This document shows, piece by piece, positions 12,039 through 62,862 of a DNA stretch of 64,000 nt (its first letter is position 1; every line of letters starts with the position of its first letter). The translations under genes and the position numbers were made by a program. Origin of the DNA: Sphingomonadaceae bacterium (GTDB taxonomy: Bacteria; Pseudomonadota; Alphaproteobacteria; Sphingomonadales; Sphingomonadaceae); the NCBI GenBank assembly GCA_029268145.1, contig JAJUHA010000007.1, positions 1-64,000 on the forward strand, in the 5' to 3' direction. Under the pieces are notes generated by a model. The model worked only from the letters and a program-made list of their open reading frames with translations, did no database searches and had not been told where the DNA came from.

Positions 12039-12073
12039 GTGGGCCGGCGCGATGGGCATTCGGGGAGGCGAAG

Positions 12074-14527: not shown

Positions 14528-14548
14528 CCCCCGCCCCCGCCCCCGCCC
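14528..14548 (-). other. G-quadruplex motif upstream of xthA
   Basis: The minus strand carries four G-runs of 3, 5, 5 and 5 bases separated by single C residues. One-base loops make this a very stable G4 type. It is 93 bp upstream of the xthA start on the sense strand of that gene. Confidence 0.6.
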
Positions 14549-14551
14549 GAT

Positions 14552-14600
14552 ACGCATTGGGCCCTGCTCCGGGGGCATGGAGCAGGGCCCGTTTATGCGT
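14552..14600 (-). terminator. Long hairpin, possible lolA terminator or leader structure
   Basis: GGGCCCTGCTCC (14559-14570) and GGAGCAGGGCCC (14579-14590) form a perfect 12-bp stem with an 8-nt loop. ACGCAT (14552-14557) and ATGCGT (14595-14600) extend it by 6 bp across a small internal loop. No U-tract follows on either strand, so intrinsic termination is uncertain; the structure itself is clear. Confidence 0.5.
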
Positions 14601-14791
14601 TCGTCACGCAAGGGAGAGGACAGGGCCGGGCAACAGGGGGCAAATCCCGGCGGGCCTCTCCTGTTCCCCGTCTAGCGGCCTCAGCCTTTCCGGACGGTGA
14701 ACGGCGGAAGATTGCCCGAACGGACCTGTGCAATCAAGCCTTGTTTTCCGGACCGGCCCGGCGAGGACGCTTCCGCGTCGCGCGGGCATGT

Positions 14792-15481
14792 TCAGCCGCT
14801 CGGGCGGAGGCTGCGGCGGCGCGGATCGCGGAACCGGAAGAGCGACTCGGCGACGTCGACATTCCACCGGATTTCCGACAGTTCCACCTGGGTCAGGTTG
14901 CCCTGGCCGTCGATGACCCGCCACCCCGTGAGGCGAAGGCCCCCCGGCGCCGCCGGATCCCGCGCCAGGAAGAAGCGGATGCGGCCAAGCTCGGGGCGGC
15001 GCGGATCCTGCGCTTCGACCGTGACGGCGCCGGGGATGGGCGACTCGGCGTCCGACACGAGTCGCGCGACTCGCGCGAGGTCGGCTTCCGGGTCGAGGAG
15101 GACGCCGAGCGGAGTCTGCCGGATCGGCCACTGCGAGACCTGGGCGACCTCGAAGTCGACGAAGGAGAGGCGCTGGCCATCGGCGACGACGAGGAAGCTG
15201 GCGCCCGGGCCATAGTCGAAGCGGATCCGCCCCGGGCGCTTCATCGCCATGGTGCCCGACGCGACCCGGCCGTCCTGCGCCGTCTGGCGGAAGCGCGCCG
15301 TCATGGTGCGGGTTGTGGCAAGCGCGCGCTGGACCTCGGCCAGCGTGGCCGCCGGTGCTGCCGCCCGCGCCGGAGCGGCGGCGGGAACGGGGGCCGCGAG
15401 CGCGGCGCCCGCTGCAAGCGCCGCGACGAGCCCCGCGGCAATCCCCGCGAGGCGCCCGCGCCGGACCGGCCTGTCGTTCAT
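14792..15481 (-). CDS. lolA: Outer-membrane lipoprotein carrier protein LolA-like
   Basis: A 229-residue periplasmic protein. It has a twin-Arg-like charged N-terminus and hydrophobic signal segment (LAGIAAGLVAALAAGAALA, about residues 11-29). The LolA fold follows: MTARFRQTAQDGRVASGTMA, KRPGRIRFDYG, VVADGQRLSFVD and PLGVLLDPEADL. LolA receives lipoproteins from LolCDE and delivers them to the outer membrane. The ATG at 15479-15481 sits in an ATGA overlap with the end of gph. The terminal Arg-rich tail is slightly longer than usual. Confidence 0.9.
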   Translation of the reverse strand: MNDRPVRRGRLAGIAAGLVAALAAGAALAAPVPAAAPARAAAPAATLAEVQRALATTRTMTARFRQTAQDGRVASGTMAMKRPGRIRFDYGPGASFLVVADGQRLSFVDFEVAQVSQWPIRQTPLGVLLDPEADLARVARLVSDAESPIPGAVTVEAQDPRRPELGRIRFFLARDPAAPGGLRLTGWRVIDGQGNLTQVELSEIRWNVDVAESLFRFRDPRRRSLRPSG

Positions 15482-16185
15482 GGCGCTTCCCGTTCCGCCG
15501 GCGCCGTGAACATCGGTTGAACGCGGGCGAGTGCCTGCGGAAGGTCGGCGAACCGGTCGATCCGTTCGGCTGCCGGCAGTTCGGCATGCGGCACCTCGCA
15601 GTAGCCGAAGGTGACGAGGATGAACGGGACTCCGGCGGCGGCGGCAGTGGCAGCGTCGGTCGGCGAGTCGCCGACGAAGGCGGCGCGCGATGGCGTGCCG
15701 CCGGCAGCCGCGAGCGTGTCGAGGAGGTGGCGCGGATCGGGCTTGCGCCAGGGCCGCGAATCGGCGCCGAGCACGGCGGCGAAGCGCTGCGACCAGCCGA
15801 GCGCCTCGAGGAGGGCCTGGGTCAGGCTCTCGGGCTTGTTGGTGCAGATGGCGAGCCGCAGGCCACGGTCGGCCAGGGTGGCGAGGGTCGCCTCGACTCC
15901 GGGGAAGGGCCGGCTCATGACCGCGATGTTGGCGCGATAGTGGGCGAGGAAGTGCGGCAGGCCCTCCCTGACGAGCGGCGCGACCTCCTCCGGTGGGCCG
16001 GACGCGGCGAGCCCGCGCTCGAGCAGGCGCGCGGCCCCCGCCCCCACCATGGCGCGCACCGACTCCGCCGGCACGGGCGGCCGGCCGAGCTGGCCTAGCG
16101 CATGGTTGAGCGCGGCGGCGAGATCGGGCGCCGTGTCGACGAGGGTGCCGTCGAGATCGAAGGCGATGGTGGCGGGACGCGACAT
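15478..16185 (-). CDS. gph: Phosphoglycolate phosphatase (HAD family)
   Basis: A 235-residue HAD hydrolase. Motif I is FDLDGTLVDTAPDL (residues 9-22, nucleophile Asp10). Motif II is in AICTNKP, and motifs III/IV include the Lys of RKPDP and VGDSPTDAATA. The cap region and length match phosphoglycolate phosphatase, which clears 2-phosphoglycolate formed from oxidised DNA ends or oxygenase activity. Its stop overlaps the lolA start, so the two are co-translated. It diverges from glmU across 101 bp. Confidence 0.9.
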   Translation of the reverse strand: MSRPATIAFDLDGTLVDTAPDLAAALNHALGQLGRPPVPAESVRAMVGAGAARLLERGLAASGPPEEVAPLVREGLPHFLAHYRANIAVMSRPFPGVEATLATLADRGLRLAICTNKPESLTQALLEALGWSQRFAAVLGADSRPWRKPDPRHLLDTLAAAGGTPSRAAFVGDSPTDAATAAAAGVPFILVTFGYCEVPHAELPAAERIDRFADLPQALARVQPMFTAPAEREAP

Positions 16186-16286
16186 GGCCGAGGCCGTGCC
16201 GGAGCCGGGCGCGCAAGGGAAGCCGGGAAACGCCGCCAGCGCGCAGGCCGGTGGAACCGGGGCGGCGGCTGTGGCAGGGGCGCGCC

Positions 16287-17633
16287 ATGCCCAACCGCCC
16301 TGCTCCCGCCGTGATCGTCCTTGCCGCGGGCAAGGGCACGCGGATGCGCTCGGACCTGCACAAGGTTCTCCACCCCGTCGGCGGGAGGCCGATGCTGCTG
16401 CACCTGCTTGCCACCGTCGCGGCGCTGGAGCCGGCGCGGATCGTGGTCGTGGTCGGCGACCGGGCCGGGCAGGTCGAGGCGGCGGTCGCGCCGCTTAGCG
16501 TTGCGATCGCGGTCCAGGAGCCCCAGCTCGGCACCGGGCACGCGGTGCAGCAGGCGGAGGCGGCGCTTCGCGGCCACGACGGGCCCGTGCTCATCCTGTT
16601 CGGCGACGTGCCGCTGGTGCGCGCGGCGACGCTTGGCCGGCTGCTCGACGCGGTGACGCCGGATGCGCCGATCGCGGTGCTTGGCTTCCGCCCGGCCGTG
16701 CCGGGAGCCTATGGCCGGATTCTCGCCGACGCCGACGGGCGGATCGCGCGGATGGTCGAGGCGCGCGACGCGAGCCCCGAGGAGCTTGCCATCCCGCTGT
16801 GCAACGCCGGGATGATGGCGGTCGACGGCGCGCGGCTGTGGCCGCTGCTCGCGCGGGTCGGCAATGCCAACGCCGCCGGCGAATATTATCTTCCCGACAT
16901 CGTCATGCTGGCGCGCGCCGACGGGCTTGGCGCGACCGTCATCGAGGCCGAGGAGGCCGAGCTGGTCGGAGTCAACAGCCGGGCCGATCTTGCCCTGGTG
17001 GAGGCCGCCTTCCAGGCGCGGCGACGGCGCGAGGTGATGGAGGCGGGGGTGACGCTGGTGGCGCCCGAGACCGTCTTCCTCGCCCATGACACGCAGTTCG
17101 GGCGGGACTGCCTGGTCGAGCCCTTCGTCGTGTTCGGGCCCGCCGTGACGCTGGGCGACCGCGTGGTGGTGCATGCGCATTCGCATCTGGAGGGAGCGCG
17201 GCTGGGCGATGGCTGCGCGGTCGGCCCGTTCGCGCGGCTGCGGCCCGGAACCCTGCTCGAGGCGGGGGCGAAGGTGGGCAACTTCGTCGAGACCAAGAAG
17301 GCGCGGCTGGGGGCCGGGGCCAAGGCCAACCATCTGGCCTATCTGGGCGACGCCGAGGTGGGCGCGGGCGCGAACGTCGGCGCGGGGACGATCACCTGCA
17401 ACTATGACGGGTTCGACAAGTTCCGCACCGTGATCGGCGACGGCGCCTTCATCGGCTCGAACAGCGCGCTGGTCGCGCCGGTGACGGTGGGGGCGGGGGC
17501 GATCGTGGGCGCGGGCTCGGTCATCACCCGCGATGTCGCCGCCGATTCGCTCGCGGTGGCGCGCGGCCGGCAGGAGGGGCACGCCGGCTGGGCGGCGCGG
17601 TTCCGGGCCGGCAAGGCGCGCAAGGGCGATTGA
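16287..17633 (+). CDS. glmU: Bifunctional GlmU (N-acetylglucosamine-1-phosphate uridyltransferase / acetyltransferase)
   Basis: A 448-residue enzyme making UDP-GlcNAc for peptidoglycan and lipid A. The N-terminal pyrophosphorylase domain has IVLAAGKGTRMRSDLHKVLH and later GTGHAVQQAE and FGDVPLV. The C-terminal left-handed beta-helix has hexapeptide repeats and VGNFVETKKARLGAGAKANH and GTITCNYDGFDK near residues 330-380. The start at 16287 begins the conserved domain; the frame is open to 16251. Its stop TGA overlaps the -35 element of the downstream vapBC promoter. Confidence 0.97.
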   Translation: MPNRPAPAVIVLAAGKGTRMRSDLHKVLHPVGGRPMLLHLLATVAALEPARIVVVVGDRAGQVEAAVAPLSVAIAVQEPQLGTGHAVQQAEAALRGHDGPVLILFGDVPLVRAATLGRLLDAVTPDAPIAVLGFRPAVPGAYGRILADADGRIARMVEARDASPEELAIPLCNAGMMAVDGARLWPLLARVGNANAAGEYYLPDIVMLARADGLGATVIEAEEAELVGVNSRADLALVEAAFQARRRREVMEAGVTLVAPETVFLAHDTQFGRDCLVEPFVVFGPAVTLGDRVVVHAHSHLEGARLGDGCAVGPFARLRPGTLLEAGAKVGNFVETKKARLGAGAKANHLAYLGDAEVGAGANVGAGTITCNYDGFDKFRTVIGDGAFIGSNSALVAPVTVGAGAIVGAGSVITRDVAADSLAVARGRQEGHAGWAARFRAGKARKGD

Positions 17634-17657
17634 CACGATATGTTATCGTGATATCGA
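17630..17657 (+). promoter_or_regulatory. vapBC promoter with nested palindromic operator
   Basis: TTGACA at 17630-17635 and TATCGA at 17652-17657 have a 16-bp spacer. CACGATA-TGT-TATCGTG (17634-17650) is a perfect 7-bp inverted repeat, and CGATAT (17636-17641) with ATATCG (17651-17656) is a second one sharing bases with it. Both cover the promoter, as expected of an autoregulatory antitoxin operator. The predicted transcript start falls at or near the ATG at 17664, so the mRNA may be leaderless. Confidence 0.55.
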
Positions 17658-17918
17658 ATGGCCATGCGCACGCTCATCGACCTTCCCGACGAGGACATCG
17701 CCTGGCTTGACCAGCTGGCGCTTGGAACGGGCAGGTCCCGTGCCGCGCTCGTGCGCGAGGCCGTCGCCCGTTTCCGTCGCGACCGTGCCGGGGACTCGCT
17801 CGACCGCGCCTTCGGCGCCTGGACCGGACGCGCCGACATCGGCGACGGGGTTGCCTACCAGGACCGGCTGCGCCGGGAGTGGGATCGCGATCGGGCTGGC
17901 CCGGATCCGGGGCCGTGA
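17658..17918 (+). CDS. Ribbon-helix-helix antitoxin (VapB/CopG type)
   Basis: An 86-residue protein. MRTLIDLPDEDIAWLDQLA, from the second Met (residue 3), gives the beta-strand and first helix of a ribbon-helix-helix domain, and SRAALVREAVARFR the second helix. The C-terminal 40 residues are charged and should bind and block the toxin. No Shine-Dalgarno sequence is visible before either ATG (17658 or 17664). The next gene starts in its stop codon (GTGA), the usual antitoxin-toxin arrangement. It probably represses its own promoter through the palindromes at 17634-17656. Confidence 0.83.
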   Translation: MAMRTLIDLPDEDIAWLDQLALGTGRSRAALVREAVARFRRDRAGDSLDRAFGAWTGRADIGDGVAYQDRLRREWDRDRAGPDPGP

Positions 17919-18286
17919 CCGACGTCTCCTTCGACACCAATATCCTGATCGACTTCCTGAACGGGATCGAGGCCAGCCGGGGGGAACTTCGGCGCGTGCG
18001 GCGGCGGTGGATCAGCCGGATCAGCTGGATCGAGGTGATGGCGGGGATCGACGAAGGGACGGTGACCGTGGTGGAGGATTTCCTCGCCCAGTTCTCGATC
18101 GACGAGGTCACCGAGGACGTCGGCCGCCTTGCCGCCGCGATGCGTCGCGAGCGGGCCAGCCTGCGCCTGCCGGACGCCATCGTACTTGCCACGGCGCAGG
18201 CCCGCGGCCGAATCCTCGTGACCCGCAACACGCGCGACTTCCCGGCCAGCATGCCGGGCATTCGCGTTCCCTACCAGCTTCCCTGA
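17915..18286 (+). CDS. PIN-domain toxin (VapC type)
   Basis: A 123-residue PIN-domain ribonuclease. The four acidic residues are in place: Asp in SFDTNILIDFL (residues 5-15), Glu in SWIEVMAG, Asp in LRLPDAIVLATA and the Asp in TRNTRDFP. VapC toxins cleave tRNA or rRNA when released from the antitoxin. The GTG at 17915-17917 was chosen because homology starts there and it overlaps the antitoxin stop; an upstream ATG at 17879 would lengthen the protein by 12 unlikely residues. It lies 13 bp before glmS. Confidence 0.87.
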   Translation: MTDVSFDTNILIDFLNGIEASRGELRRVRRRWISRISWIEVMAGIDEGTVTVVEDFLAQFSIDEVTEDVGRLAAAMRRERASLRLPDAIVLATAQARGRILVTRNTRDFPASMPGIRVPYQLP

Positions 18287-18299
18287 AAGGTCCCGGTCC

Positions 18300-20119
<1,820 letters not shown>

Positions 20120-50597: not shown

Positions 50598-51626
50598 CTA
50601 GGGTGCGAGCGCGGCGATCCACGCCCGGACGAGCGCGATGCCCTCCGCATCCGGGAGCGTCCGGCCCAGTTCGGGCATCATCACGCCGGGCTCGCGCGAC
50701 TCCATCCGGTAGAGGAGGATCGAGCGCTCCGGCTGGCCCGGCGCAATGGCCACCTCGCGCCCGCCCGAGCCACGCCCGGCCGCAACCGGGCGCTTGCCGA
50801 CGCCGAGCGCGACCCGGTCCGTCTCCTCCCAGTCGAGATAGAGGCCGGAGTTGGAGGCGCTGCCCGCGCGCGCGTGGCAGTGGCCGCAATTGGCATCCAG
50901 CCAGCCCCGCGCCCGAAGCTCGAGCGGCGCGGTGGCGTCGTCCGGCCGGGGCACGGCGCGCACTGCGGCGAGGCGCTCGCTGCCCTCGAGCAGGCCCATG
51001 CGGGCAAGGCGGGCAAGATCGCCAGTTGCCGCGAGGTTGCGCGCCTTGACGCCGAGCGGCTGGAGCGTGGTGCCGACGGCGTGGCAGGTCTTGCACTGGT
51101 TGACGTTGGGAACCGCCCAGGCGAGCGCATGGACTTCCCCGCCGGCGGCGAAGCGGACCGGCACGCGGGCGCCGGCGCGGCGGAGGCGGGCCTCGCGCCC
51201 GTCCGCGTCCCACACATAGGGCAGCGCCACCCACCCGTCGGCCCGGCGCACCAGAAGCCGCGTCTCCATGGTGACGGCGGGCCCGGCGGCGGACGCCGGA
51301 TAGCCGAAGCTCTTCACCAGCACCGTTCCGACCGGAAGGTCGAGGAGCCCGTCTCCCCGGAGCCTTGCGCGCGTGCCGGGCGGAAGGGCGATGGCGCGCG
51401 CCTTCGCGGCATGGTCCGAGAAGAGCGGCGCCGCCACCGTGTAGGGCACGACGCCAGGGGCCAGGCGCCTGCCCTCCATCTCGGCGAAGAGGCCGGTCTG
51501 GGAGAGCGTTGCCGGCGGGCTCCCGGCCTGGAGCGCGGCAAACGCGACGGCCGCGGCGGCAGGCGCCGGCAGCAGGGCCAAGAAGGATGCCGCCAGCAGC
51601 AGGAGCCGCCCCAGCAGCCGGCGCAT
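50598..51626 (-). CDS. Diheme c-type cytochrome, SO2930 type
   Basis: A 342-residue periplasmic protein with signal peptide (LLLLAASFLALLPAPAAA). Two haem-binding motifs are present, NQCKTCHAVGTT (about residue 178) and ANCGHCHARAG (about 243), with Met ligands in the C-terminal part (GVMMPELG). This matches the SO2930-like diheme family. It is made with the beta-helix protein encoded just upstream on the same strand (4-bp gap), its normal partner. The electron partner is unknown. TTG 51641 is an alternative start. Confidence 0.88.
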   Translation of the reverse strand: MRRLLGRLLLLAASFLALLPAPAAAAVAFAALQAGSPPATLSQTGLFAEMEGRRLAPGVVPYTVAAPLFSDHAAKARAIALPPGTRARLRGDGLLDLPVGTVLVKSFGYPASAAGPAVTMETRLLVRRADGWVALPYVWDADGREARLRRAGARVPVRFAAGGEVHALAWAVPNVNQCKTCHAVGTTLQPLGVKARNLAATGDLARLARMGLLEGSERLAAVRAVPRPDDATAPLELRARGWLDANCGHCHARAGSASNSGLYLDWEETDRVALGVGKRPVAAGRGSGGREVAIAPGQPERSILLYRMESREPGVMMPELGRTLPDAEGIALVRAWIAALAP

Positions 51627-51630
51627 GGCG

Positions 51631-52872
51631 CTAGCGTCCAAGCCCCGGCTGGTCGGCCGGGAGGACGACGGGGGCCGGCTCGGGCGGTGGTGGCGCCGCG
51701 GGTGCCGGCTTGGGCGCGGGGGTCGCCTTCTCCGGCGGAGCGCCGGCGACGCCGAGGTTCAGGCTGAGCGCCGGCACGTCGAGGAAGTGGACATGGACCG
51801 GCTCCTGCTGCTCGCGCCCGCCGGTGGTGAAGCGGTCCACGCCGTCCCACAGGCCGGGCGGCAGGGTGCCGCCGACGGCTGCCGCAATCTCCTGCCCGCC
51901 GGGGAAGGCCGGGGCGAAGCCGTTCCTGCCCACCGTGTTGCCGCGCACCACGACATCTCGCGGAAGGGGGTTGTAGCCCGGGCTGTCGAAGGGCTGGGCA
52001 TAGGCGATCACCAGGAAGGCGGCGCTGGCGTTCCCCGAGACGGTGTTGCCGAAGACATGGACGTTGCGGTTGGCCATCACCATGATGCCCGTGCCCACCG
52101 GCACCGAGGCGACGATGTTGCCGGGCGGCGCGAAATTGGGCGTGTCGTTGTCGATGACGCGGTTGCCGAACACCCGGGTCGAATGGCCGCCCATCTGCGG
52201 CAGGTTGGGAAGGTCGAAGACGAGGATGCCGCCGGTGTTATTCCGGACCGTGTTGCCGGAGACGTCGGCGTGCATGCTGTTCTCGATCTCGATCCCCGCC
52301 ACATTGTATTCGGCAAGGCTGTCGCGGACGATGATGTTCCGCGACTGGCCGACATAGATGCCGGCGTCGGACGCGCCCCTCACCGTCACCCGCTCGATCA
52401 AGACGTTGGTCGAGGAGACCGGATAGACGCCATAGGCGCCGTTGGTGGGCTTTGGCCCGCCGGTCCATTCCACTTCGAGATCCTGGAAGCTCACCCGGTC
52501 CGACCCCTTGGACTTGATGCCGTCCCCCCTGGTGTCGCGGACGGTCAGGTTGCGGACGAGCACCCGGCTCGAGGTGATCATGAGGCCCTCGCCGGCGCCT
52601 TCCTGGCCGGAGAAGTCGAGGATGGTCCTGCCTGCACCGGCGCCTTCGACCGTGACGCCGGGGACATCGAGCGAGAGGCCGGTCGTGAAGGCGAAGGTGC
52701 CGGCGGCGAAGCGCACCGTGTCTCCGGGCTTCGCGTCGATGAGCGCTTCCTGCGCCCGCTCGCCCGCGTGCGGGCCCGGGGCCACCAGCAGCACGCGGCC
52801 CGCCGGCGCCGCCCCCGCCCCGCCTGCCGTCACCAGCGCTGCAAGCACCGCAAGCCCGGTCATCACCCGCAT
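51631..52872 (-). CDS. Exported right-handed parallel beta-helix protein (SO2929 type)
   Basis: A 413-residue protein with a signal peptide (MTGLAVLAALVTAGGAGAAP, from residue 4). Pectate-lyase-like repeats follow: LDVPGVTVEGAGAGRTILDF, VLVRNLTVRDTRGDGIKSKG, VLIERVTVRGASDAGIYVGQ, AGIEIENSMHADVSGN. The family pairs with SO2930-like cytochromes. The C-terminal 50 residues form an Ala/Pro-rich tail that may extend through the wall or anchor it. The start has GGGGAGG upstream. Substrate is unknown. Confidence 0.87.
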   Translation of the reverse strand: MRVMTGLAVLAALVTAGGAGAAPAGRVLLVAPGPHAGERAQEALIDAKPGDTVRFAAGTFAFTTGLSLDVPGVTVEGAGAGRTILDFSGQEGAGEGLMITSSRVLVRNLTVRDTRGDGIKSKGSDRVSFQDLEVEWTGGPKPTNGAYGVYPVSSTNVLIERVTVRGASDAGIYVGQSRNIIVRDSLAEYNVAGIEIENSMHADVSGNTVRNNTGGILVFDLPNLPQMGGHSTRVFGNRVIDNDTPNFAPPGNIVASVPVGTGIMVMANRNVHVFGNTVSGNASAAFLVIAYAQPFDSPGYNPLPRDVVVRGNTVGRNGFAPAFPGGQEIAAAVGGTLPPGLWDGVDRFTTGGREQQEPVHVHFLDVPALSLNLGVAGAPPEKATPAPKPAPAAPPPPEPAPVVLPADQPGLGR

Positions 52873-52979: not shown

Positions 52980-54068
52980 GTGGCGCATCCGCTGAATGGA
53001 GCCGACTGGAAGGTGCTCGCGCGCGTGCTGGGCGAGGCCGGCGGCGGCGTGCCGGCCGCGCGGCTCCTGCCCATCCGCGCCGCAATCCTGGGCCGGCTGC
53101 CCTTCACCCTCCTCGAGAAGGCCGTCACCGCCGCCCGCGTGCCGCCGCTTGCCGAGCTGCCGCCGCCGCTCTTCATCCTCGGCCACTGGCGCTCGGGGAC
53201 GACCCATCTCGTCAACATCCTCGGCCATGGCGCGTTCGCCTATGTGCCTCCGGTCGCGGTCGGCATGCCTTCGGAGATGCTGACGCTCGGCCGGATGCTC
53301 CGCCCGCTGCTCGAGCGCGCGCTCCCCGAGAGCCGGTTCATCGACCAGGTCGCCGTCACGCCGACCAGTCCGCAGGAGGACGAGATCGCGATCGCCAACC
53401 TCTCGGCCATCTCCTTCTACCACGGCATCTACTTCCCCGCCGCCTTCGACCGCTTCGTCAACCGCGGCCTCTTCTTCGACGGGGCGACCAGGGCCGACAT
53501 CGCCGAATGGACCGAGGCCTTCACCCTGTTCGTCCGCAAGATCAGCTGGGCGGCGGGCGGGCGGCCGGCCCTCGTCAAGAACCCCGTCTACACCGGCCGC
53601 GCGGCGCTGCTGAAATCGCTCTTCCCCCGCGCGAAATTCGTCCACATCCACCGCGACCCGTTCGACCTCTTCCTCTCGATGCGGAACTTCTGGGCCAGGC
53701 TGTTCGAGGCGCTCGCGCTCCAGCCCTTCGACCATGTCGACATCGACGAGGTGGTGCTGGCCATCTACGAGCGGATGATGGCCGCCTTCGAAGCGCAGAC
53801 GCAGGGCTGGGCCGCGCCGGACTTCGTCGAGGTCGCCTATGCCGACCTCGACGCCCGGCCGATGGAGACGGTGGAGCAGATCTACGCCACGCTCGAGCTT
53901 CCCGGCTTTGCTGCTGCCGCGCCGAAGTTCGCCGCCTATCTCGAGACGGTGCGGAGCTACGAGAAGAACCGCTTCCGCGGCGACGCCGAGGCCGTCGCCC
54001 GGGTGGCGGAGCGCTGGGCCCGCTGGATTTCGAAATGGGGCTACGCGACGCCCGTGCCCGCCGCCTGA
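52980..54068 (+). CDS. Sulfotransferase family protein
   Basis: A 362-residue sulfotransferase. The 5'-phosphosulfate loop of PAPS binding is FILGHWRSGTTHL (about residues 65-77). The 3'-phosphate motif is VHIHRDPFDLFLSMRNFW, and the LVKNPVYTGR block precedes it. The GTG start at 52980 has GAGGAG six bases upstream, better than the TTG at 52923. Its end overlaps the next gene by 34 bp, which in turn overlaps hpnA. It probably sulfates a lipid or glycolipid; the context suggests a hopanoid link, which is inference. Confidence 0.88.
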   Translation: MAHPLNGADWKVLARVLGEAGGGVPAARLLPIRAAILGRLPFTLLEKAVTAARVPPLAELPPPLFILGHWRSGTTHLVNILGHGAFAYVPPVAVGMPSEMLTLGRMLRPLLERALPESRFIDQVAVTPTSPQEDEIAIANLSAISFYHGIYFPAAFDRFVNRGLFFDGATRADIAEWTEAFTLFVRKISWAAGGRPALVKNPVYTGRAALLKSLFPRAKFVHIHRDPFDLFLSMRNFWARLFEALALQPFDHVDIDEVVLAIYERMMAAFEAQTQGWAAPDFVEVAYADLDARPMETVEQIYATLELPGFAAAAPKFAAYLETVRSYEKNRFRGDAEAVARVAERWARWISKWGYATPVPAA

Positions 54069-55003
54069 GCGCGCCGGCGTGTGCCGCGGGGCTCGCCCTC
54101 CTCGCGCTCCTCGCGGGCTGCGGGCGCGAGGCCGGCGGGCCGGCGCGCTTTGCGCCCTCCGACTGCCGGGTCGTGAAGGTGACCGACGCCGCGACCGGCC
54201 GGCCGATCGCGGGCATCGAGGACATCGCCCTCTCCGGCCCGCGGCTCATCCTCTCGGCGCCGGCTGCGGCGAGGCTGGTGCCCGCCGGCGCGATCGCCGG
54301 CGGCCTCCGGCCCCATGGCATCGCCGCCGAGGGCGCCCGCCTTGCGGTCGTCAACCGCCGCATCGGCGCCAGTGGCCGGGTCGACCCGGTCGTCCTCGAG
54401 CTCGAGCTTGCCGGCGGCCGCGCCCGGCTTGCCGGCCTCCGGCGCGGGCCGGGCTTCTGCGCGCTCAACGATGTCGCCTTCTGGCAGGGTGGCCTGCTGG
54501 CCACGCGCGATCGCGACCGCTGCCCGCAAGGCCTGGCCGGCGAGCTTCTCGTGCGGCCGGAAAGCGGCAGCCTCGTCGTCCTCGACGATGCCGGCATGCG
54601 GGTGCTGGCCGAGGGCCTCGCCTATGCCAATGGCGTGGCGGTGCTTCCCGACGGGGGCATCGCCGTTGCCGAGACGCGCGCCGGCCGGGTCCGCCTCTCC
54701 GACGGGCGGATGCTGGCCGTGCCGGGCCACCCCGACAATCTGACGGTCGCGGCGAACGGCCGCCTTGTCGTCGGCGTCATCCCGAGCCTGTGGCGCTTCG
54801 GCCTGCACCTCACCGGCCATCGGGCGCGCGCGCCCTCGCGTCTCGTCGCGCTCGATCCGGCCTCGGGCGCGGTCGAATGGCTGTTCGACGACCCGGAAGG
54901 CCGGCTGCTGCCGGGCATCACCGTCGGCCTGCTGGCCGAGGGCATGCTGGTTGCCGGCGCGGTCAGGGCCCAGGGACTGCTCGTCTGCGGAGGGAAGGGA
55001 TGA
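54035..55003 (+). CDS. Lipoprotein with beta-propeller (SMP-30/gluconolactonase-like) fold
   Basis: A 322-residue protein. The lipoprotein signal is AGLALLALLAGC (lipid Cys at about residue 29). The following repeats, such as GIAAEGARLAVVNRR, YANGVAVLPDGGIAVAETRA and HPDNLTVAANGRLVVGVIPS, match SMP-30/SGL or arylesterase-type propellers, including the NGVAVL motif. Calcium-binding residues are plausible but not provable. The ATG at 54035 is inside the sulfotransferase gene; no later start fits the signal. It overlaps hpnA (ATGA). Confidence 0.82.
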   Translation: MGLRDARARRLSAPACAAGLALLALLAGCGREAGGPARFAPSDCRVVKVTDAATGRPIAGIEDIALSGPRLILSAPAAARLVPAGAIAGGLRPHGIAAEGARLAVVNRRIGASGRVDPVVLELELAGGRARLAGLRRGPGFCALNDVAFWQGGLLATRDRDRCPQGLAGELLVRPESGSLVVLDDAGMRVLAEGLAYANGVAVLPDGGIAVAETRAGRVRLSDGRMLAVPGHPDNLTVAANGRLVVGVIPSLWRFGLHLTGHRARAPSRLVALDPASGAVEWLFDDPEGRLLPGITVGLLAEGMLVAGAVRAQGLLVCGGKG

Positions 55004-55968
55004 GACGGCTTCTCGTGACGGGTGCGGGCGGGTTTCTCGGCGGCCACCTCTGCCGTCTTGCCGCGGAGCGGGGGTGGGAGGTGACGGGCCTCGACCTCCG
55101 CTTTCCCGAGGGCTTTCCGCACCGGGCCATCACCGGCTCGGTCACGCGCGCCGCCGACGTGGCGGCGGCGCTGGAAGGGGCCGATGCCGTCATCCACGCA
55201 GCCGCCGTGACGGGTCTGTGGGCGCCCTCGCGCGAGGACTGGTTCCGGGTCAACCTCGGCGGCAGCGAGTGCGTCGCCGCCGCCGCCCGCGCCGCCGGCG
55301 CCCGGCTGGTCCATGTCTCTTCCTTCACCACGCTGGTGACCGGCGCGCGCGGGGCGCGGCGGACGGTGGACGAGACCGAGGAGCTTCCCCCCACAGCGCT
55401 GATGGGCGGCTATCCGGCCTCCAAGCGCATGGCGGAGCTTGCCGTGCTTGCCGAAGTGGCGCGCGGGCTCGATGCCGTCATCGTGCTGCCCACCGCGCCC
55501 GTCGGGCCCGGCGATCCGGGGCCGACTCCGCCGATGCGCCTGATGCGCGATCTCGTCCTCGGCCGGCTGCCGGCCCTCCTCGAGACGCGGATGAACCTCG
55601 TCGCGGTGGACGCCCTCGCTGAGGGCGTGCTCGCCGCGCTGGAACGCGGCCTGACCGGCCGGCGCTACCTGCTCGCCGGCGAGAATGCGTGGCTCTCCGA
55701 GATCGCGGCCGAAGCGGCGCGGCTTGCCGGGGTTGGCGCGCCGCGGGCGCGGGTGCCCTATGCGCTCGCCCACCTCGCCGGGATGGCGAGCGAGTTCGGC
55801 GCCTGGCTCGGCGGCCGCCCGGCGGGCGCGCCGCTCACCGGGATCCGGCTCGCCGGGAGGCCGCTCGATTTCGCGAACGCGCGCGCGCGGGCCGAGCTGG
55901 GCTTCGACCCGCCCGGCTGGCGGGAGACGGTCGCGCGGGCGGTGGCCGCGGTTCAGGCGGAAGGATAG
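55000..55968 (+). CDS. hpnA: Hopanoid-associated sugar epimerase HpnA-like (NAD-dependent)
   Basis: A 322-residue short-chain dehydrogenase/reductase. The Rossmann motif is VTGAGGFLGGHL (residues 6-17), the active site GGYPASKRMAEL (about 138-149, Tyr and Lys), and HVSSFTTLV supplies the Ser. In hopanoid loci HpnA is a predicted sugar-nucleotide epimerase of the polar side chain. Identity as HpnA rests on context and overall resemblance. It starts in the lipoprotein stop and converges with hpnB with a 16-bp overlap. Confidence 0.8.
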   Translation: MRRLLVTGAGGFLGGHLCRLAAERGWEVTGLDLRFPEGFPHRAITGSVTRAADVAAALEGADAVIHAAAVTGLWAPSREDWFRVNLGGSECVAAAARAAGARLVHVSSFTTLVTGARGARRTVDETEELPPTALMGGYPASKRMAELAVLAEVARGLDAVIVLPTAPVGPGDPGPTPPMRLMRDLVLGRLPALLETRMNLVAVDALAEGVLAALERGLTGRRYLLAGENAWLSEIAAEAARLAGVGAPRARVPYALAHLAGMASEFGAWLGGRPAGAPLTGIRLAGRPLDFANARARAELGFDPPGWRETVARAVAAVQAEG

Positions 55969-57125
55969 ACCCGGCCCTTCCACTGCCCGCCCACCCCCCG
56001 CCAGTGGCGCAGCGCCGAAAGCCAGGTGAAGGCCGCGTAGAAGCCGGCCGCGAGCGGAAGCGTCAGCGCCACCACGCCCGGCAGGCCGCAGTGGCGCACC
56101 ATGGGCCGGTAGGTGAGGGTCATGACGAGCCAGGCAAGGCCTCCCGCCGCTGCCGCCGTGCCCTGGCCGTGGAGGGGCCAGCCGAGCCACAGGAGCGGCG
56201 GCGCGAGGTAGACGAGCGCGAGCCCGGCAAGCGTGCCCATGAGCAGCAGGGAGGAGTGGCGGAGCTGGGCATAGGCCGTGCGGGCGACCATGTCGCGCAC
56301 GCTCGCAAGCGGCCGGTTGTCGCGCAGGCTGACCGCCTCGGCGAAGCCGTCGGCGAGCACCAGTTCGATCCGCCGGCCCGTCGGCCCGGCCTTGACCAGG
56401 CCGGCGAGCGTGCAGTCGTCGATGAGCGCGCCCCTGAGCGCCGCGAAGCCGCCGCTCGCCTCGAGCACGGTGCGGCGGATCAGCACCACCCCGCCGGCCG
56501 CGCCGGCCACCCGGCTTGCCGGATCATTCACGGCAGCGAACGGGTAGAGCTTCGCGAAGAAGTAGAGGAAGGCGGGGATGAGGAGCCCGCCCCAGACGCC
56601 GCGGCAGTCGAGCCGCGCCATCACCGAGAGGAGCGCCAGATCCGCGGCTTCGGCCCGCGCCACGAGACGGGCGAGCAGTTCGGGGCCGTGGCGGATGTCG
56701 GCATCGGTCAGCAGCAGCCAGCGCGCCCCGGGTGCGAGGGTGCCTGCCGCCTCGCGCGCCGTCTCGAGCGCCCAGAGCTTGCCCGACCAGCCCGGCGGCA
56801 GCGGCCGGCCCGGGACGATGTGGACGGGGCGCGGGGGCGCGCAGCCGGCGGCGGCCTGCGCCGCCTCGGCCGTGCCGTCGTCCGAGCCGTCGTCGACGAG
56901 GATGAGGCGCATCCGGCCCGGATAGGTGGAGGCCATGTGCGCGGCGACCACGTCGCCCACCTGCGCGGCCTCGTTGCGCGCCGGGATGAGGACGGCCACC
57001 TCCGGCCATTCCGCCGGCGCCGGCGCAGGGAGGAGGCGCTCGCGCAGGCGCCAGAAGCCGCGGCGGAACAGCGCCAGCCAGGCCCAGGCGAGAAGAGAGG
57101 CGATGGCGGCGAGGGTGAGGAGCAC
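55953..57125 (-). CDS. hpnB: Hopene-associated glycosyltransferase HpnB
   Basis: A 390-residue membrane glycosyltransferase of family 2. One N-terminal TM segment precedes VAVLIPARNEAAQVGD and LILVDDGSDDGTAEAA (about residues 39-80). The DADI motif is in LLLTDADIRHG, and a later acceptor motif is RGALIDDCTLAGLVK. The C-terminal half has three to four TM segments, with YRPMVRHCGLPG between them. The start is GTG at 57123-57125 because no ATG fits. It is the only hopanoid gene here on the opposite strand, and diverges from hpnC over 69 bp. Confidence 0.9.
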   Translation of the reverse strand: MLLTLAAIASLLAWAWLALFRRGFWRLRERLLPAPAPAEWPEVAVLIPARNEAAQVGDVVAAHMASTYPGRMRLILVDDGSDDGTAEAAQAAAGCAPPRPVHIVPGRPLPPGWSGKLWALETAREAAGTLAPGARWLLLTDADIRHGPELLARLVARAEAADLALLSVMARLDCRGVWGGLLIPAFLYFFAKLYPFAAVNDPASRVAGAAGGVVLIRRTVLEASGGFAALRGALIDDCTLAGLVKAGPTGRRIELVLADGFAEAVSLRDNRPLASVRDMVARTAYAQLRHSSLLLMGTLAGLALVYLAPPLLWLGWPLHGQGTAAAAGGLAWLVMTLTYRPMVRHCGLPGVVALTLPLAAGFYAAFTWLSALRHWRGVGGQWKGRVYPSA

Positions 57126-57194: not shown

Positions 57195-58058
57195 ATGGCA
57201 GGGCCAATGCAGATCTTCCGCGACAGCGACATCGAGGCGGGAAGCGGCAAGGGGGCGGCCGACGAGAATTTCCCCGTCGGCTCGCGCCTCGTCGCGCCGA
57301 ATCTGCGCCCGCATTTCCGCGCCTACTATGCCTTTGCCCGCGCGACCGACGACATCGCGGACTCGCCCGACCTTTCGCCGCAGGAGAAGATCCGCCGGCT
57401 CGACGCCTTCGAGGCCGTGCTCGAGGGGCGCGCCCGGGGCCTTGCCAAGGCCGAGGCGCTCGCTGCCAGCCTCGCTGCAACCGGCATCGCCACCGCCCGC
57501 GCGACCGACCTTCTCGTTGCCTTCCGCGCCGACGCGACCAGGTCCCGCTACGCGAGCTTCGCCGAGCTTCTCGCCTATTGCCGCCACTCGGCCGACCCGG
57601 TCGGGCGCTTCCTGCTCGATCTCCATGGCGAGACGCCCTCGCTCTACCCCGCCGCCGACGCGCTCTGCACGGCGCTCCAGATCCTAAACCACCTGCAGGA
57701 CATGGGCACGGACCTCGCCCGGCTCGACCGGGCCTATGTGCCGCTCGACTGGCTGGCGGCGGAAGGGGAGACGGTCGCAGCGCTTGCCGCGCGCCGCGTC
57801 TCGCCGGGCCTGAGGCGGGTGATGAACCGGCTGCTCGACGAGGTCGACCGCCTGCTCGACACGGCAGATGGCCTGGCAGCCTTGCGCAGCCGCTCGCTCG
57901 CCGGCGAGGCGGCTGCCATCCGCGCGCTCGCCCGCCGGCTTGCCGGCCGGCTCCGCCGCGAGGATCCGCTGGCCTCCCGGGTCGCGCTGTCGAAGGCCGA
58001 TTTCGCCGCCGCGCTGGGGCGCGGCCTCGTTGCCGGCCTGTTCCGGCGGGCGGCATGA
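57195..58058 (+). CDS. hpnC: Squalene synthase-like protein HpnC
   Basis: A 287-residue member of the squalene/phytoene synthase fold. GSGKGAADENFPVGSRLV at residues 16-33 and the Asp-rich FARATDDIADS (about 48-58) are HpnC marks. The second motif ILNHLQDMGTDLARL replaces the usual DxxxD with QDMGTD. HpnC takes presqualene diphosphate to hydroxysqualene in the three-step route. ATG 57207 is an alternative start. It leads hpnC-D-E-shc-hpnG. Confidence 0.9.
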   Translation: MAGPMQIFRDSDIEAGSGKGAADENFPVGSRLVAPNLRPHFRAYYAFARATDDIADSPDLSPQEKIRRLDAFEAVLEGRARGLAKAEALAASLAATGIATARATDLLVAFRADATRSRYASFAELLAYCRHSADPVGRFLLDLHGETPSLYPAADALCTALQILNHLQDMGTDLARLDRAYVPLDWLAAEGETVAALAARRVSPGLRRVMNRLLDEVDRLLDTADGLAALRSRSLAGEAAAIRALARRLAGRLRREDPLASRVALSKADFAAALGRGLVAGLFRRAA

Positions 58059-58951
58059 CGGGGCTTGCCGCGCTCCTGCCCCGCGCCGCCGAGGGCGACC
58101 CGGCCGCCCTTGCGCGGGCCATCACCCACGCCTCGGGCACCAGCTTCGGCCCGGGCATGGCGATCCTGCCCCGCCCGCGGCGCCAGGCGATGCACGCCGT
58201 CTACGCCTTCTGCCGCATGGTCGACGACATCGCCGACGGGCCCTTCGCGCCCGTCGAGAAGCACGCCGCGCTCGACGCCTGGCGCGCCGAGATCGAGGCC
58301 CTCTACGCCGGCCGCCCGGCGAGCGCGATCGGCCATGCCCTGCTCCCTGGCGTGGCGGCCTTCGCCCTGCCCAAGAGCGAGTTCGACCTCCTCATCGAGG
58401 GGATGGCGATGGACGCCGACGGGCCCATCGTCGCGCCGGGCCGCACCATGCTCCAGCGCTACACGCGGCGGGTGGCCGGCGCGGTCGGCGCGCTTTCGAT
58501 CCGCATCTTCGGCGCCTTCGCCGGGCCGGTCTCCGACCGGTTCGCGCTTGCGCTCGGCGATGCCTTCCAGCTCACCAACATCCTGCGCGACATCGAGGCC
58601 GATGCCGCGATCGGCCGGCTCTATCTTCCCGCCGATCTGCTCGCCGCGCACGGCATTCCGGCCGATCCGGCGCGCGTTCCGGGCCACCCGGCGCTTCCGG
58701 CGCTCGCCCGCGCCCTCGGCGGCGAAGCGCGCGCCGCCTATGACGAGGCGCGCCGGCTTGCGCCGGCCCACAGCCGCCTGCGGCTTGCCCCCGCGCTCGT
58801 CATGATGGGGGCCTATGAGGCCTATCTCGACCGGATGGAGGCGCTCGGCTGGGCCCGGCCGCTTCCCGAGCCGCTGCTTTCGCGGCGCACCAAGCTGGCG
58901 CGCGGCCTCGCCCTTGCCCTGCTCGGACCCGGCGCGCCGCGGAGCCGATGA
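58055..58951 (+). CDS. hpnD: Presqualene diphosphate synthase HpnD
   Basis: A 298-residue prenyl-coupling enzyme joining two farnesyl diphosphates. YAFCRMVDDIADGPF (residues about 49-63) and TNILRDIEADAAIGRLYLP (about 174-192) are the two Asp-rich motifs. QRYTRRVAGAVGAL is also typical of HpnD. Its start is in an ATGA overlap with hpnC, and its end overlaps hpnE by 4 bp. Confidence 0.93.
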   Translation: MTGLAALLPRAAEGDPAALARAITHASGTSFGPGMAILPRPRRQAMHAVYAFCRMVDDIADGPFAPVEKHAALDAWRAEIEALYAGRPASAIGHALLPGVAAFALPKSEFDLLIEGMAMDADGPIVAPGRTMLQRYTRRVAGAVGALSIRIFGAFAGPVSDRFALALGDAFQLTNILRDIEADAAIGRLYLPADLLAAHGIPADPARVPGHPALPALARALGGEARAAYDEARRLAPAHSRLRLAPALVMMGAYEAYLDRMEALGWARPLPEPLLSRRTKLARGLALALLGPGAPRSR

Positions 58952-60237
58952 CCGCCACCGCCCATGTCGTCGGCGCCGGCCTCGCCGGCCTGTCCGCCGC
59001 GCTTGCCCTCGCGCAGGCGGGCTGGCGCGTGACCGTCTGGGAGATGGCGCGCCAGGCCGGCGGCCGCTGCCGCAGCTACGAGGATGCGAAGCTCGGCTGC
59101 CGGATCGACAATGGCAACCATCTCGTCCTCTCCGGCAACCGCTCGACGCTTGCCTATCTCGCCCGCGCGGGTGCCCCCGATGCGCTCGTCATGGCGCCTG
59201 CCGCCCGCTTCCCCTTCGTCGATCTCGCTTCGGGCGAGCGCTGGGTGGTGCACATCAACGACGGCCCGCTTCCCTGGTGGCCGCTGCGCGCGTCGCGCCG
59301 CCCCGCCGGTGTCGGCCTCGGCGCGGTGCTTTCCTCGCTTCCGCTCCTCTGGGCGGACCGGGACGCGACCATCGCCGAGGCGGTGCGGGCCAGTGGCCCG
59401 GCGCATGCCCGCTTCTGGGAGCCGATGAGCCTTGCCGTCATGAACCTGCCGCCCGCGCTCGCCTCGGCCCGGCTCATGCGGGCGACCGTCTTCGAGGCCT
59501 GGCGCGACGGCCGCCTCGCCCGCCCGATGTTCGCAGCCCACGGCCTTGGCGCCGCGCTCGTCGACCCGGCGCTTGCCGCGCTTCGCCGCGCCGGCGCCGA
59601 TGTCCGCTTCGGCGCGCAGGTTCGCGGGCTCCGCGTCGAGGGCGGGCGCGTTGCGGGCCTTGCGGCTGCCGGCGAGGACATCCCGCTCGGCCCGCGCGAC
59701 GCGGTGGTGCTCGCCGTGCCGCCAGCGCGGCTGAACGCCCTGTTTCCCGCGGCCCGCGCACCCGAGGAGTCCTCCTCCATCCTCAACGCCCATTTCCGCC
59801 TCGCCGCGCCCGTCGCCGGCCCGCCGCTCCTCGGCGTCACCGGAGCGCGGACCCAGTGGATCTTCGTGAAGGGGGAGGTGGTCTCGCTCACCATCTCGGC
59901 TGCGGGCTTCGTCGAAGGCGCCGACGCCGAGGAGGAAGCGCTGCTGGCGCTTCTGTGGGCCGAGACCCGCGCCGCGCTCGGCCTCGCCGACAGCCTCCGG
60001 CCGCTCGCCGCCCGCCTCGTCCACGAACGCCGCGCCACCTTCCTCCAGACGCCGGCCAATGTCCGCCGCCGGGCGCGCGCCTTGACAGGCCTTGCCAACC
60101 TCGTTCTTGCCGGAGACCATATCGCGACCGGCCTGCCCGCCACCATCGAGGGCGCGGTGCGGTCGGGCGAGACCGCGGCCCGGCTGCTGGGGCGACCCGG
60201 CGCCGAGGCGGGCGCAGCATCAGGGAGCGGACGATGA
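58948..60237 (+). CDS. hpnE: Hydroxysqualene dehydroxylase HpnE
   Basis: A 429-residue FAD-dependent enzyme that reduces hydroxysqualene to squalene. The N-terminal dinucleotide motif is HVVGAGLAGLSAALALAQAG (residues 6-25), followed by GGRCRSYEDAKLGCRIDNGN. The C-terminal FAD motif is NLVLAGDHIATGLPATIEGA. The fold is that of phytoene desaturase/amine oxidase. A 16-bp gap separates it from the shc start. Confidence 0.93.
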   Translation: MTATAHVVGAGLAGLSAALALAQAGWRVTVWEMARQAGGRCRSYEDAKLGCRIDNGNHLVLSGNRSTLAYLARAGAPDALVMAPAARFPFVDLASGERWVVHINDGPLPWWPLRASRRPAGVGLGAVLSSLPLLWADRDATIAEAVRASGPAHARFWEPMSLAVMNLPPALASARLMRATVFEAWRDGRLARPMFAAHGLGAALVDPALAALRRAGADVRFGAQVRGLRVEGGRVAGLAAAGEDIPLGPRDAVVLAVPPARLNALFPAARAPEESSSILNAHFRLAAPVAGPPLLGVTGARTQWIFVKGEVVSLTISAAGFVEGADAEEEALLALLWAETRAALGLADSLRPLAARLVHERRATFLQTPANVRRRARALTGLANLVLAGDHIATGLPATIEGAVRSGETAARLLGRPGAEAGAASGSGR

Positions 60238-60253: not shown

Positions 60254-62191
60254 ATGAACATTGCCGTCGATGGTGGAACGTTCGGCCGCGAGGCGCGGCG
60301 GACCCTCATCCGCGAGCGGGCCGAGGCGCTCTACGCCTTCCGCAGGGACGATGGCCACATCGTCTTCGACCTCGAGGCCGACACCACCATTCCCGCCGAA
60401 TATGTCCTGCTCAGGCACTTCCTCGGCGAGGTGGACTCCGAGACCGAGCGCCGGATTGCCCTCTATCTGCGCGCCGAGCAGTCGGAGGACGGCTCCTGGC
60501 CGCTGTTCAGGGCCGGTGCCGGCGATCTTTCCGCCACCGTCAAGGCCTACTGGGCCCTGAAGCTCATCGGCGACCCGATCGAGGCGCCGCACATGGTGCG
60601 CGCGCGGGCCTGGATCCTCGCCCGCGGCGGGGCCGCCAGGGCCAATGTCTTCACCCGCATCGCCCTTGCCCTCTTCGGCCACATCCCCTGGCGCGGCGTC
60701 CCCGTCATCCCGGTCGAGGTGATGCACCTGCCGCTGTGGTTTCCCTTCCACATCTCCAAGGTGGCCTACTGGTCGCGCACGGTGATGGTGCCGCTCTTCG
60801 TGCTGACCGCGCTCAAGGCGCGCGCCGCCAACCCCACCGGCCGCGGGCTTGCCGAGCTGTTCGTGGTGCCGCCCGACAAGGTCCGGCAGTATCAGGTGAA
60901 CCCCAATGGCACGAGGGTGGGCGAGGCCTTCCTCCTGCTCGACCGGGTGCTGCGCGCGCTCGAGCCCTTCATCCCCGGCCCCATCCGCCGCTCGGCCATC
61001 CGCAAGGCCGAGGCCTTCGTCCTCGAACACCTGAACGGCGAGGACGGGCTGGGCGCCATCTACCCGGCCATGGCCAATGCCGTCATGATGTTCCGCACGC
61101 TCGGCTACCCGGACGATCACCCGGCCATGGCAACGGCCCGGCGCGCGATCGAGCTTCTCAAGGTCGAGCGCGGCGAGCAGATCTGGTTCCAGCCCTGCGT
61201 CTCCCCGGTGTGGGACACGGCGCTCAGCGCCCACGCCCTCCTCGAGACCGGGGACCGCGACGATCCCCGCCTCATCGGCCTCCTCGACTGGCTGAAGGAC
61301 CGGCAGATCCTCGACCATCGCGGCGACTGGAAGGTGCGCCGGCCGCATGTCCGCCCCGGCGGCTGGGCCTTCCAGTACGCCAACCCCGACTATCCGGACG
61401 TCGACGACACCGCCGTCGTCGCCATGGCGATGCACCGCCAGGGCGACCCGAGATATGCCGAGGCGATCGAACGGGCCTGCGAGTGGATCGTCGGCATGCA
61501 GTCCTCGAACGGCGGCTGGGGCGCCTTCGAGCCCGAGAACGAGCATTTCTACCTGAACGCCATCCCGTTTGCCGACCATGGCGCGCTGCTCGATCCGCCG
61601 ACGGTCGACGTGACGGCGCGCTGCGTCGGGCTTCTCGCCCAGGTGGACCGCGCGCGCTACGCCGAGCCGATCGCCCGGGCGCTCGCCTGGATCCGCTCCG
61701 AGCAGGAGGCGGACGGCAGCTGGTTCGGCCGCTGGGGCGCCAACTACATCTACGGCACCTGGTCGGTGCTGGTGGCGCTGAAGGCCGCGGGCGTGGATCC
61801 TGCCGAACCCTGGGTGCGCAGGGCCGTGGAGTGGCTGAAGGCGCAGCAGCGCGACGACGGCGGCTGGGGCGAGGGCCTCGAGACCTACGAGCCGGGCGTG
61901 CGCGGCTTCGCCATCGAATCGACCGCAAGCCAGACGGCCTGGGCGCTGCTTGGCCTCATGGCGGCCGGCGAGGTGGATGCGCCGGAAGTGGCGCGCGGCA
62001 TCCGCTGGCTCGAGACGGCCCCGCGCGAGGACGGCCCGCGCTGGGCCGAGCGCATGTACACCGGCACCGGCTTCCCGCGGGTCTTCTACCTGAAATACCA
62101 TGGCTATGCCGCCTTCTTCCCGCTCTGGGCGGTGGCGCGCTATCAGGCGCTCAAGGATTCGAACGCGCGCGACCTGTCGTGGGGCATGTGA
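60254..62191 (+). CDS. shc: Squalene--hopene cyclase
   Basis: A 645-residue triterpene cyclase. The catalytic acid motif is DVDD at residues 382-385 (in DYPDVDDTAVV). QW repeats include QSSNGGWGAFEPEN, QEADGSWFGRWG and QQRDDGGWGEGL, and WFQPCVSPVWDTALSAHAL is characteristic. The enzyme cyclises squalene to hop-22(29)-ene/hopanol at the inner membrane. The ATG at 60254 starts four residues before the usual first helix. The stop overlaps the GTG of hpnG. Confidence 0.97.
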   Translation: MNIAVDGGTFGREARRTLIRERAEALYAFRRDDGHIVFDLEADTTIPAEYVLLRHFLGEVDSETERRIALYLRAEQSEDGSWPLFRAGAGDLSATVKAYWALKLIGDPIEAPHMVRARAWILARGGAARANVFTRIALALFGHIPWRGVPVIPVEVMHLPLWFPFHISKVAYWSRTVMVPLFVLTALKARAANPTGRGLAELFVVPPDKVRQYQVNPNGTRVGEAFLLLDRVLRALEPFIPGPIRRSAIRKAEAFVLEHLNGEDGLGAIYPAMANAVMMFRTLGYPDDHPAMATARRAIELLKVERGEQIWFQPCVSPVWDTALSAHALLETGDRDDPRLIGLLDWLKDRQILDHRGDWKVRRPHVRPGGWAFQYANPDYPDVDDTAVVAMAMHRQGDPRYAEAIERACEWIVGMQSSNGGWGAFEPENEHFYLNAIPFADHGALLDPPTVDVTARCVGLLAQVDRARYAEPIARALAWIRSEQEADGSWFGRWGANYIYGTWSVLVALKAAGVDPAEPWVRRAVEWLKAQQRDDGGWGEGLETYEPGVRGFAIESTASQTAWALLGLMAAGEVDAPEVARGIRWLETAPREDGPRWAERMYTGTGFPRVFYLKYHGYAAFFPLWAVARYQALKDSNARDLSWGM

Positions 62192-62862
62192 CGCCGGCGG
62201 TCCGGCTCGGCATCGTCTGCGGCCTCGCCTCGGAGGCCTCTGCACTCGGTTTCCCGGGACTCGCCGTCTCGGGCGCGCGGCCCGAACGGGCGGACGCGCA
62301 GGCCCGGGAGCTGGCGCGGCAGGGGGCGAAGGCGCTGCTTTCCGTCGGGCTTGCGGGTGCGCTTGCACCTGGCCTCGCGCCCGGAGACCTGCTGGTGCCG
62401 GCGCGGGTGGTGACGGCAGAGGGCCGCGCGTTCGCTGCCGATGCGGGGCTCGCCGCCGCGCTCGGCCTCGCGCTCGACCCGTGCGCCCTGCTCGGCTCCG
62501 ACACGCTGGTTGCAACCGTGGCGGACAAGGCCGCGCTGCACGCCGCAACCGGCGCCGTTGCCGTCGACATGGAAAGCCATGCCGTCGCGCGTGCGGCCCG
62601 GGCGACCGGCCTTCCGTTCCTGGCGCTGCGCGTCATCGCCGACCCGGCTGACGCCGCCATTCCGCGGGCGGCGCGCGCGAGCGTGCGCTCCGACGGAAAG
62701 GTCGATGTGGTCGGCACCCTGCTGCGCCTCCTCGCCCGCCCGCAGGATCTTCCCGCCCTCATCGCGCTCGGCCGCGCCTCGGCGGCTGCGCACGCCCGGC
62801 TGCGCGATCTTGCCCCCCGGCTTGCGCGACTCGCCGCCACCGCCCATCTCTCCGGCGGATGA
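62188..62862 (+). CDS. hpnG: Hopanoid-associated phosphorylase HpnG
   Basis: A 224-residue nucleoside-phosphorylase-fold protein. [14 protein letters not shown] (residues 7-20), [22 protein letters not shown] (about 47-68) and [12 protein letters not shown] (about 128-139) fit. HpnG removes adenine from adenosylhopane, leading to phosphoribohopane. hpnH, which forms adenosylhopane, is not in the window. GTG start inside the shc stop (GTGA); ATGA overlap with msrB. Confidence 0.88.

Follow-up and report, generated by a model that had tools for sequence, protein, structure and literature searches.

Hopanoids are sterol-like lipids that serve as major membrane lipids and as geological biomarkers. 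The known genes that tailor them, hpnH, hpnG, hpnO, hpnI/J/K, hpnP and hpnR, presumably share the side chain as their target, and none of them transfers sulfate. Indeed, the hpn scheme includes no sulfotransferase in the accessible part of a survey of hopanoid chemistry, which also states the functions of hpnA and hpnB as unestablished (PMC12583986). Here we describe a module of three genes, encoding a sulfotransferase (STF), a paraoxonase-family lipoprotein (PON) and an HpnA-like extended SDR, which occurs in the same clusters as these tailoring genes and presumably acts on the same part of the molecule but, unlike them, includes a sulfotransferase. In the searchable literature (preprints and most subscription journals lay outside the search), we found no report of sulfated hopanoids or of a hopanoid sulfotransferase, and no description of an STF-PON-SDR hopanoid module or of a two-clade split of 'hpnA' by STF. 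The enzyme families are already known; what appears to be new is that they come together in a hopanoid-associated module and that 'hpnA' divides by STF presence.

Gene layout at the locus

Within the window, the whole 64,000-nucleotide stretch of DNA analysed here, the STF, PON and SDR genes follow one another on the plus strand (Table 1). The sequence-only reading had reported that the STF gene overlaps the lipoprotein gene by 34 bp and the lipoprotein gene overlaps the third gene by 4 bp (ATGA), and both overlaps are confirmed by the coordinates. It had also put the three genes directly before the hopanoid genes, which is correct insofar as they abut the edge of the cluster. However, because hpnB lies on the minus strand, convergent with the SDR gene and sharing 16 bp with it at the 3' ends, the three do not run directly into the hopanoid genes, which restart on the plus strand (hpnC-D-E-shc-hpnG) at 57207 and end at 62862. 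The STF, PON and SDR genes are their own small operon abutting the hopanoid genes, not the first genes of these. The HpnH gene of the host genome is found at another site (C13), outside the hopanoid cluster of the window.

Table 1. Genes of the module and of the adjoining hopanoid cluster (window positions)
Feature	Position	Strand	Profile or structural match	Start, stop and upstream motif
STF, PAPS-dependent Sulfotransfer_3 sulfotransferase (predicted), 362 aa	52980..54068	+	PF13469, 101.7 bits (cut-off 27)	GTG 52980, TGA 54068; GAGGAG 5' of start
PON ('SGL'), paraoxonase (PON1)-family six-bladed propeller lipoprotein (predicted), 322 aa, lipobox LLAGC	54035..55003	+	PON1 profile, fold	ATG 54035, TGA 55003
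SDR, HpnA-like extended SDR of the STF-module clade, 322 aa	55000..55968	+	TIGR03466, 227.8 bits (below cut-off 367.65)	ATG 55000, TAG 55968; GGAGGG 5' of start
hpnB, hopene-associated glycosyltransferase	55953..57125	-	TIGR03469, 457.6 bits (above cut-off 379)	
hpnC, squalene synthase	57207..58058	+	TIGR03464, 252.8 bits (above cut-off 250.45)	
hpnD, presqualene diphosphate synthase	58055..58951	+	TIGR03465, 267.7 bits (slightly below cut-off 278.6)	
hpnE, hydroxysqualene dehydroxylase	58948..60237	+	TIGR03467, 317.7 bits (above cut-off)	
shc/hpnF, squalene-hopene cyclase	60254..62191	+	TIGR01507, 761 bits (above cut-off)	
hpnG, hopanoid-associated phosphorylase	62179..62862	+	TIGR03468, 174.5 bits (slightly below cut-off 187); PF01048 match	

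On the other side of the module, at 50598-52872, lies a divergent pair of genes for an SO2930-type diheme cytochrome c (TIGR03806) and a parallel beta-helix protein (TIGR03805), beginning 107 bp upstream of STF. This pair stands at the same place in two further genomes of the genus (L053, L054) and was not seen there in others.

The sulfotransferase and the lipoprotein

STF scores well over the Sulfotransfer_3 cut-off, and its predicted structure (mean pLDDT 87) has M. tuberculosis STF1 and M. avium STF9 as its nearest folds in a fold search. With these enzymes it shares the PAPS-binding motifs and the predicted fold: the 5'-PSB loop GHWRSGTTHL and the 3'-PB residues R225/S233 are conserved across 22 distant homologues, down to 37% identity, with R71, G73-T75, R225 and S233 invariant and S72 nearly invariant. 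Unlike STF1 and STF9, with which it has 15-18% identity, STF belongs to a group of its own that is tied to hopanoid genes and carries an invariant PQEDE and a conserved YHG motif. LGS1 and retinol dehydratase appear among the weaker fold matches, which are generic to the superfamily. Motifs and modelled fold together predict a PAPS-dependent sulfotransferase of a hopanoid-associated clade. The host genome has a second Sulfotransfer_3 gene (L001, at G000:C17:9888-10631), outside the hopanoid region.

The lipoprotein had initially been taken for an SGL propeller. A Pfam search gave no SGL match and an NHL match below threshold only, while a profile of 24 homologues picked up serum paraoxonase PON1 (E 3e-38) and the top fold-search matches of the predicted structure (pLDDT 88) were all PON1 (Foldseek E 4e-15, TM 0.74); on these grounds an SMP-30/gluconolactonase (SGL) identity is rejected and PON preferred. 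The conserved residues E62/D63, H94, N145, N199, D234/N235 and C44/C318 align to E53/D54, H115, N168, N224, D269/N270 and C42/C353 of PON1, where we take E53, N168, N224, D269 and N270 to be the catalytic calcium ligands and H115/H134 to be the His dyad. The putative calcium ligands E62, N145, N199, D234 and N235 are kept in 36-38 of 38 homologues and H94, the H115 equivalent, in 36 of 38, and the position of H134 is occupied by an arginine (R107/R108 region, with R108 invariant). Going by the titles of crystal entries, crystal structures exist for PON1 variants carrying H134R. Profile and model thus assign the lipoprotein to the paraoxonase family, with the calcium site retained. It resembles PON1, a lactonase/arylesterase, in its six-bladed propeller, its calcium ligands, its H115 equivalent and its ring-closing cysteines, but differs from it in the arginine, in being a bacterial lipoprotein or membrane-anchored protein, and in overall sequence (about 20% identity).

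The third gene and canonical HpnA

The third gene had been named hpnA, and like HpnA (TIGR03466, hopanoid-associated sugar epimerase) its product has an extended SDR fold with GxxGFxG and YxxxK motifs (GAGGFLG and YPASK in the window) and adjoins hpnB. Its score on the HpnA model, however, falls far below the cut-off (Table 1). Canonical HpnA was present in 20/20 STF-less, shc-positive relatives at 435-493 bits, whereas the module SDRs of the 17 shc-positive relatives with the module reached 183-311 bits, and module SDRs in general 183-350 bits against the cut-off of 368. Fourteen of these 17 genomes lacked canonical HpnA, which was found only in G203, G007 and G228 (in the latter as contig-end fragments; 20/20 vs 3/17, Fisher 1e-7). 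Similarly, HpnA exceeded the cut-off in only 3 of 32 named STF-bearing genomes.

In a tree of 90 SDR sequences, for which the canonical HpnA of STF-less genomes was drawn from Alphaproteobacteria, canonical HpnA formed one clade (support 99) without the window protein, and all module SDRs fell into a separate group (97), including those of Gammaproteobacteria, Cyanobacteria and Verrucomicrobiota. Moreover, unlike HpnA, the module SDR is accompanied by STF and usually by PON, and both SDR types coexist in G007, G203 and the genomes of loci L111 and L133. Score, tree and coexistence in single genomes rule out a true HpnA; judged by its sequence, the third gene encodes an SDR of a sister clade that travels with STF. 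The module mostly takes the place of canonical HpnA, and this replacement is partial. A further HpnA-like SDR clade (L206-L213) is found in several module-bearing genomes beside two conserved genes of ~560 aa, away from STF and hpn genes.

Co-occurrence with squalene-hopene cyclase

A search of the order sample detected STF in 16 of 396 genomes, and shc was present in 15 of these 16, compared with 36/396 overall (Fisher 1.6e-16; all Fisher tests here, including that on canonical HpnA, ignore ancestry). The sole shc-less STF-positive genome is 64% complete. Counted by genus, the values were 11/12 STF genera vs 19/84 (4e-8). One shc genome scored as STF-negative (G233) carries the SDR and PON genes together with a truncated STF gene where a contig ends (L275). 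The class sample, in which all STF matches exceeded 500 bits, gave shc in 10/10 STF-positive genomes against 107/385 overall (2e-6). Among named genomes of several phyla, shc accompanied a close STF in 32/32 cases and a distant STF in 4/18 (3e-9), with the boundary set at 400 bits on a custom profile after the data had been seen; in the STF tree, one branch divides close from distant STFs (support 76).

The module is therefore conserved and almost confined to hopanoid-making bacteria of several phyla. An early idea that it is unrelated to hopanoids came from G007, a further relative whose module is distant from its own hopanoid genes, and was dropped given that every near-complete module genome has shc. 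Within the genus, one genome without the module (G113) also lacks shc and HpnH, which suggests that the whole hopanoid set has been lost or gained there.

Neighbourhoods of the module

Gene calling outside the window relied on a simple codon-usage script, so that starts are approximate, and calls at high-GC loci may be incomplete (L053; the PON gene in L053, L054 and L119). In the order sample, the arrangement STF-PON-SDR was kept in 14/14 STF-bearing genomes outside the genus, usually with the overlaps, and it extends to other phyla; the neighbourhood comparison proposed with the sequence-only reading thus turns out in its favour. Since the order recurs in all of these genomes, and recurs together with hpnB-C-D-E in other families, the arrangement is not due to chance. 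Among the 67 close-STF loci, 45 or more showed the full order and 61 had the SDR. Of the 54 close-STF loci spanning at least 10 kb, 40 contained hpn genes, with one genome (L092/L123) counted twice, and their HpnH and HpnN calls were over the profile cut-offs; of the distant-STF loci, 6/29 had hpn-type matches, all apparently generic glycosyltransferase or MMPL matches.

The hopanoid genes flanking the module vary between lineages. In Parvularculaceae (Amphiplicatus, Marinicaulis, Parvularcula) the order is STF-PON-SDR-hpnB-C-D-E-(shc)-hpnG, whereas families f2 and f7 have hpnG-hpnH-hpnN-hpnM-STF-PON-SDR. The module likewise adjoins hpnN/hpnM in Geminicoccaceae, Skermanella stibiiresistens and Azospirillum, and single loci read hpnN-hpnM-STF-PON-SDR-hpnB-C-D-E-shc-hpnG-hpnH (L274), shc-hpnG-hpnH-hpnN-hpnM-STF-PON-SDR (L094) and, in A. 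brasilense Sp7 (L267; STF on plasmid ABSP7_p1, 183,664-184,740), SDR-hpnM-STF-PON-hpnN-shc-hpnG-hpnH. Next to hpnH/hpnG it is found in Litchfieldella (Halomonadaceae) and in a Myxococcales MAG (L134; shc..STF-STF-hpnH-hpnG). Reduced forms also occur: STF stands alone beside hpnN/hpnM in a Phycisphaera MAG, and Cyanobacteria and some Gammaproteobacteria have an STF/SDR pair without a PON gene. Because PON and SDR are missing beside STF in some lineages (L115, L127-L129, L134), the three genes are not an obligate trio. In roughly one in four of the long loci, and in several families (f6, G007), the module lies away from hpn genes.

At positions 10001-19732 of the Parvularcula maris locus (L139), the gene order is that of the window including shc, which most other Parvularculaceae loci lack there; a transfer between lineages is possible. 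In other loci of this family (L100-L109, L143), the genes before the module encode a TamA-like Omp85 protein and a long protein of ~1270 aa, and genes for a phytanoyl-CoA dioxygenase-like protein and a universal stress protein often follow it.

Proposed function and alternative explanations

Given a neighbourhood conserved across phyla and an STF clade that tracks shc almost perfectly, a hopanoid-linked role, as the sequence-only reading had suggested, is very likely, and we regard the association of the module with hopanoids as nearly certain. Our main reading, to which we give a probability of roughly 0.6, is that STF-PON-SDR serves to tailor hopanoids and falls outside the hpn scheme as described so far, with STF most likely sulfating the hopanoid side chain from PAPS; that the sulfate is stably retained seems to us about equally probable. 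HpnH and HpnG would build the polyol side chain from hopene, and STF would most likely move the sulfuryl group from PAPS to a side-chain hydroxyl in the cytoplasm. Guessing from family and position, the SDR likely oxidises, reduces or epimerises a side-chain carbon, either before or after sulfation, and the PON lipoprotein probably processes or binds the lipid at the periplasmic side, near HpnM/HpnN, the hopanoid transport proteins that are encoded in many module clusters and would act at the export side. The data themselves establish the gene order and its conservation, the protein families, the link with shc and the partial replacement of canonical HpnA; the hopanoid as sulfate acceptor, the sequence of steps and what SDR and PON do are inferred.

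The module could instead sulfate another molecule whose presence correlates with hopanoids, such as a glycan, a carotenoid or a lipid A-like lipid, with co-regulation as the reason for its place in hopanoid clusters. The substrates of Sulfotransfer_3 enzymes vary, and the unlinked modules of family f6 and G007 would fit such a role. We nevertheless consider it unlikely, as, across several phyla, no near-complete module genome is without shc, and the module is repeatedly placed beside hpnN, hpnM, hpnH, hpnG and shc. A very unlikely explanation is that the third gene encodes a normal HpnA that evolves fast, with STF and PON genes as chance neighbours. The SDR does occupy the usual HpnA site beside hpnB, and its low scores may in part reflect divergence, as the canonical HpnA of STF-less bacteria was sampled within Alphaproteobacteria; however, the separate grouping (97 vs 99 support), the genomes with both SDR types and the conservation of STF-PON-SDR even away from hpn genes argue against it, and tree and coexistence largely refute it.

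Sulfation might also be transient. Sulfotransferases in strigolactone synthesis (LGS1) and retinol dehydratase use sulfate as a leaving group, and by analogy SDR and PON could subsequently turn the side chain into an anhydro, unsaturated or lactone form. The company of an SDR and a lactonase/arylesterase-type protein, the generic fold matches to these two enzymes and the fact that no stable sulfated hopanoid is known are all in line with this scenario, but several lineages have STF without PON or SDR nearby, and we think it rather improbable. Returning to stable sulfation, the comparative data suggest that a sulfated hopanoid, undetected until now, is made by many of the hopanoid-making bacteria with the module. 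Whether sulfated hopanoids form an unseen lipid class, which in many Alphaproteobacteria would come from a dedicated STF-PON-SDR module and in scattered Gammaproteobacteria, Cyanobacteria, Planctomycetota, Verrucomicrobiota and Myxococcota from reduced forms of it, and which standard positive-ion and periodate methods would miss, is in our view an even bet. If true, hopanoids would, through the module, also come with a charged head group, as anionic bacterial counterparts of sulfated sterols; the module could also explain strains without the expected side chains and would give a reason for the absence of HpnA in many hopanoid producers.

Comparison with published hopanoid chemistry

In a Rohmer (periodate) degradation survey of 52 strains of cultivated Alphaproteobacteria, only three strains with bacteriohopanepolyol genes were without a Rohmer product, namely A. 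brasilense Sp7, Skermanella aerolata 5416T-32 and Microvirga massiliensis (PMC12583986). The first two of these were checked for STF, and both carry it. For A. brasilense Sp7, the survey gives adenosylhopane alone by LC-MS (PMC12583986), even though the STF locus includes hpnG. This would fit a downstream product missed by the methods, for example a sulfate ester, and also simple non-production; the Rohmer outcome has an ordinary explanation if adenosylhopane is the sole product made. We therefore treat the Sp7 chemistry as a lead and not as proof, the published data being compatible with a sulfated hopanoid and going no further (PMC12583986). As this well-studied strain carries the STF locus, the idea of hopanoid sulfation is directly testable in it. 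The STF of S. aerolata (L127) has no module partners nearby, and canonical HpnA is present in that genome.
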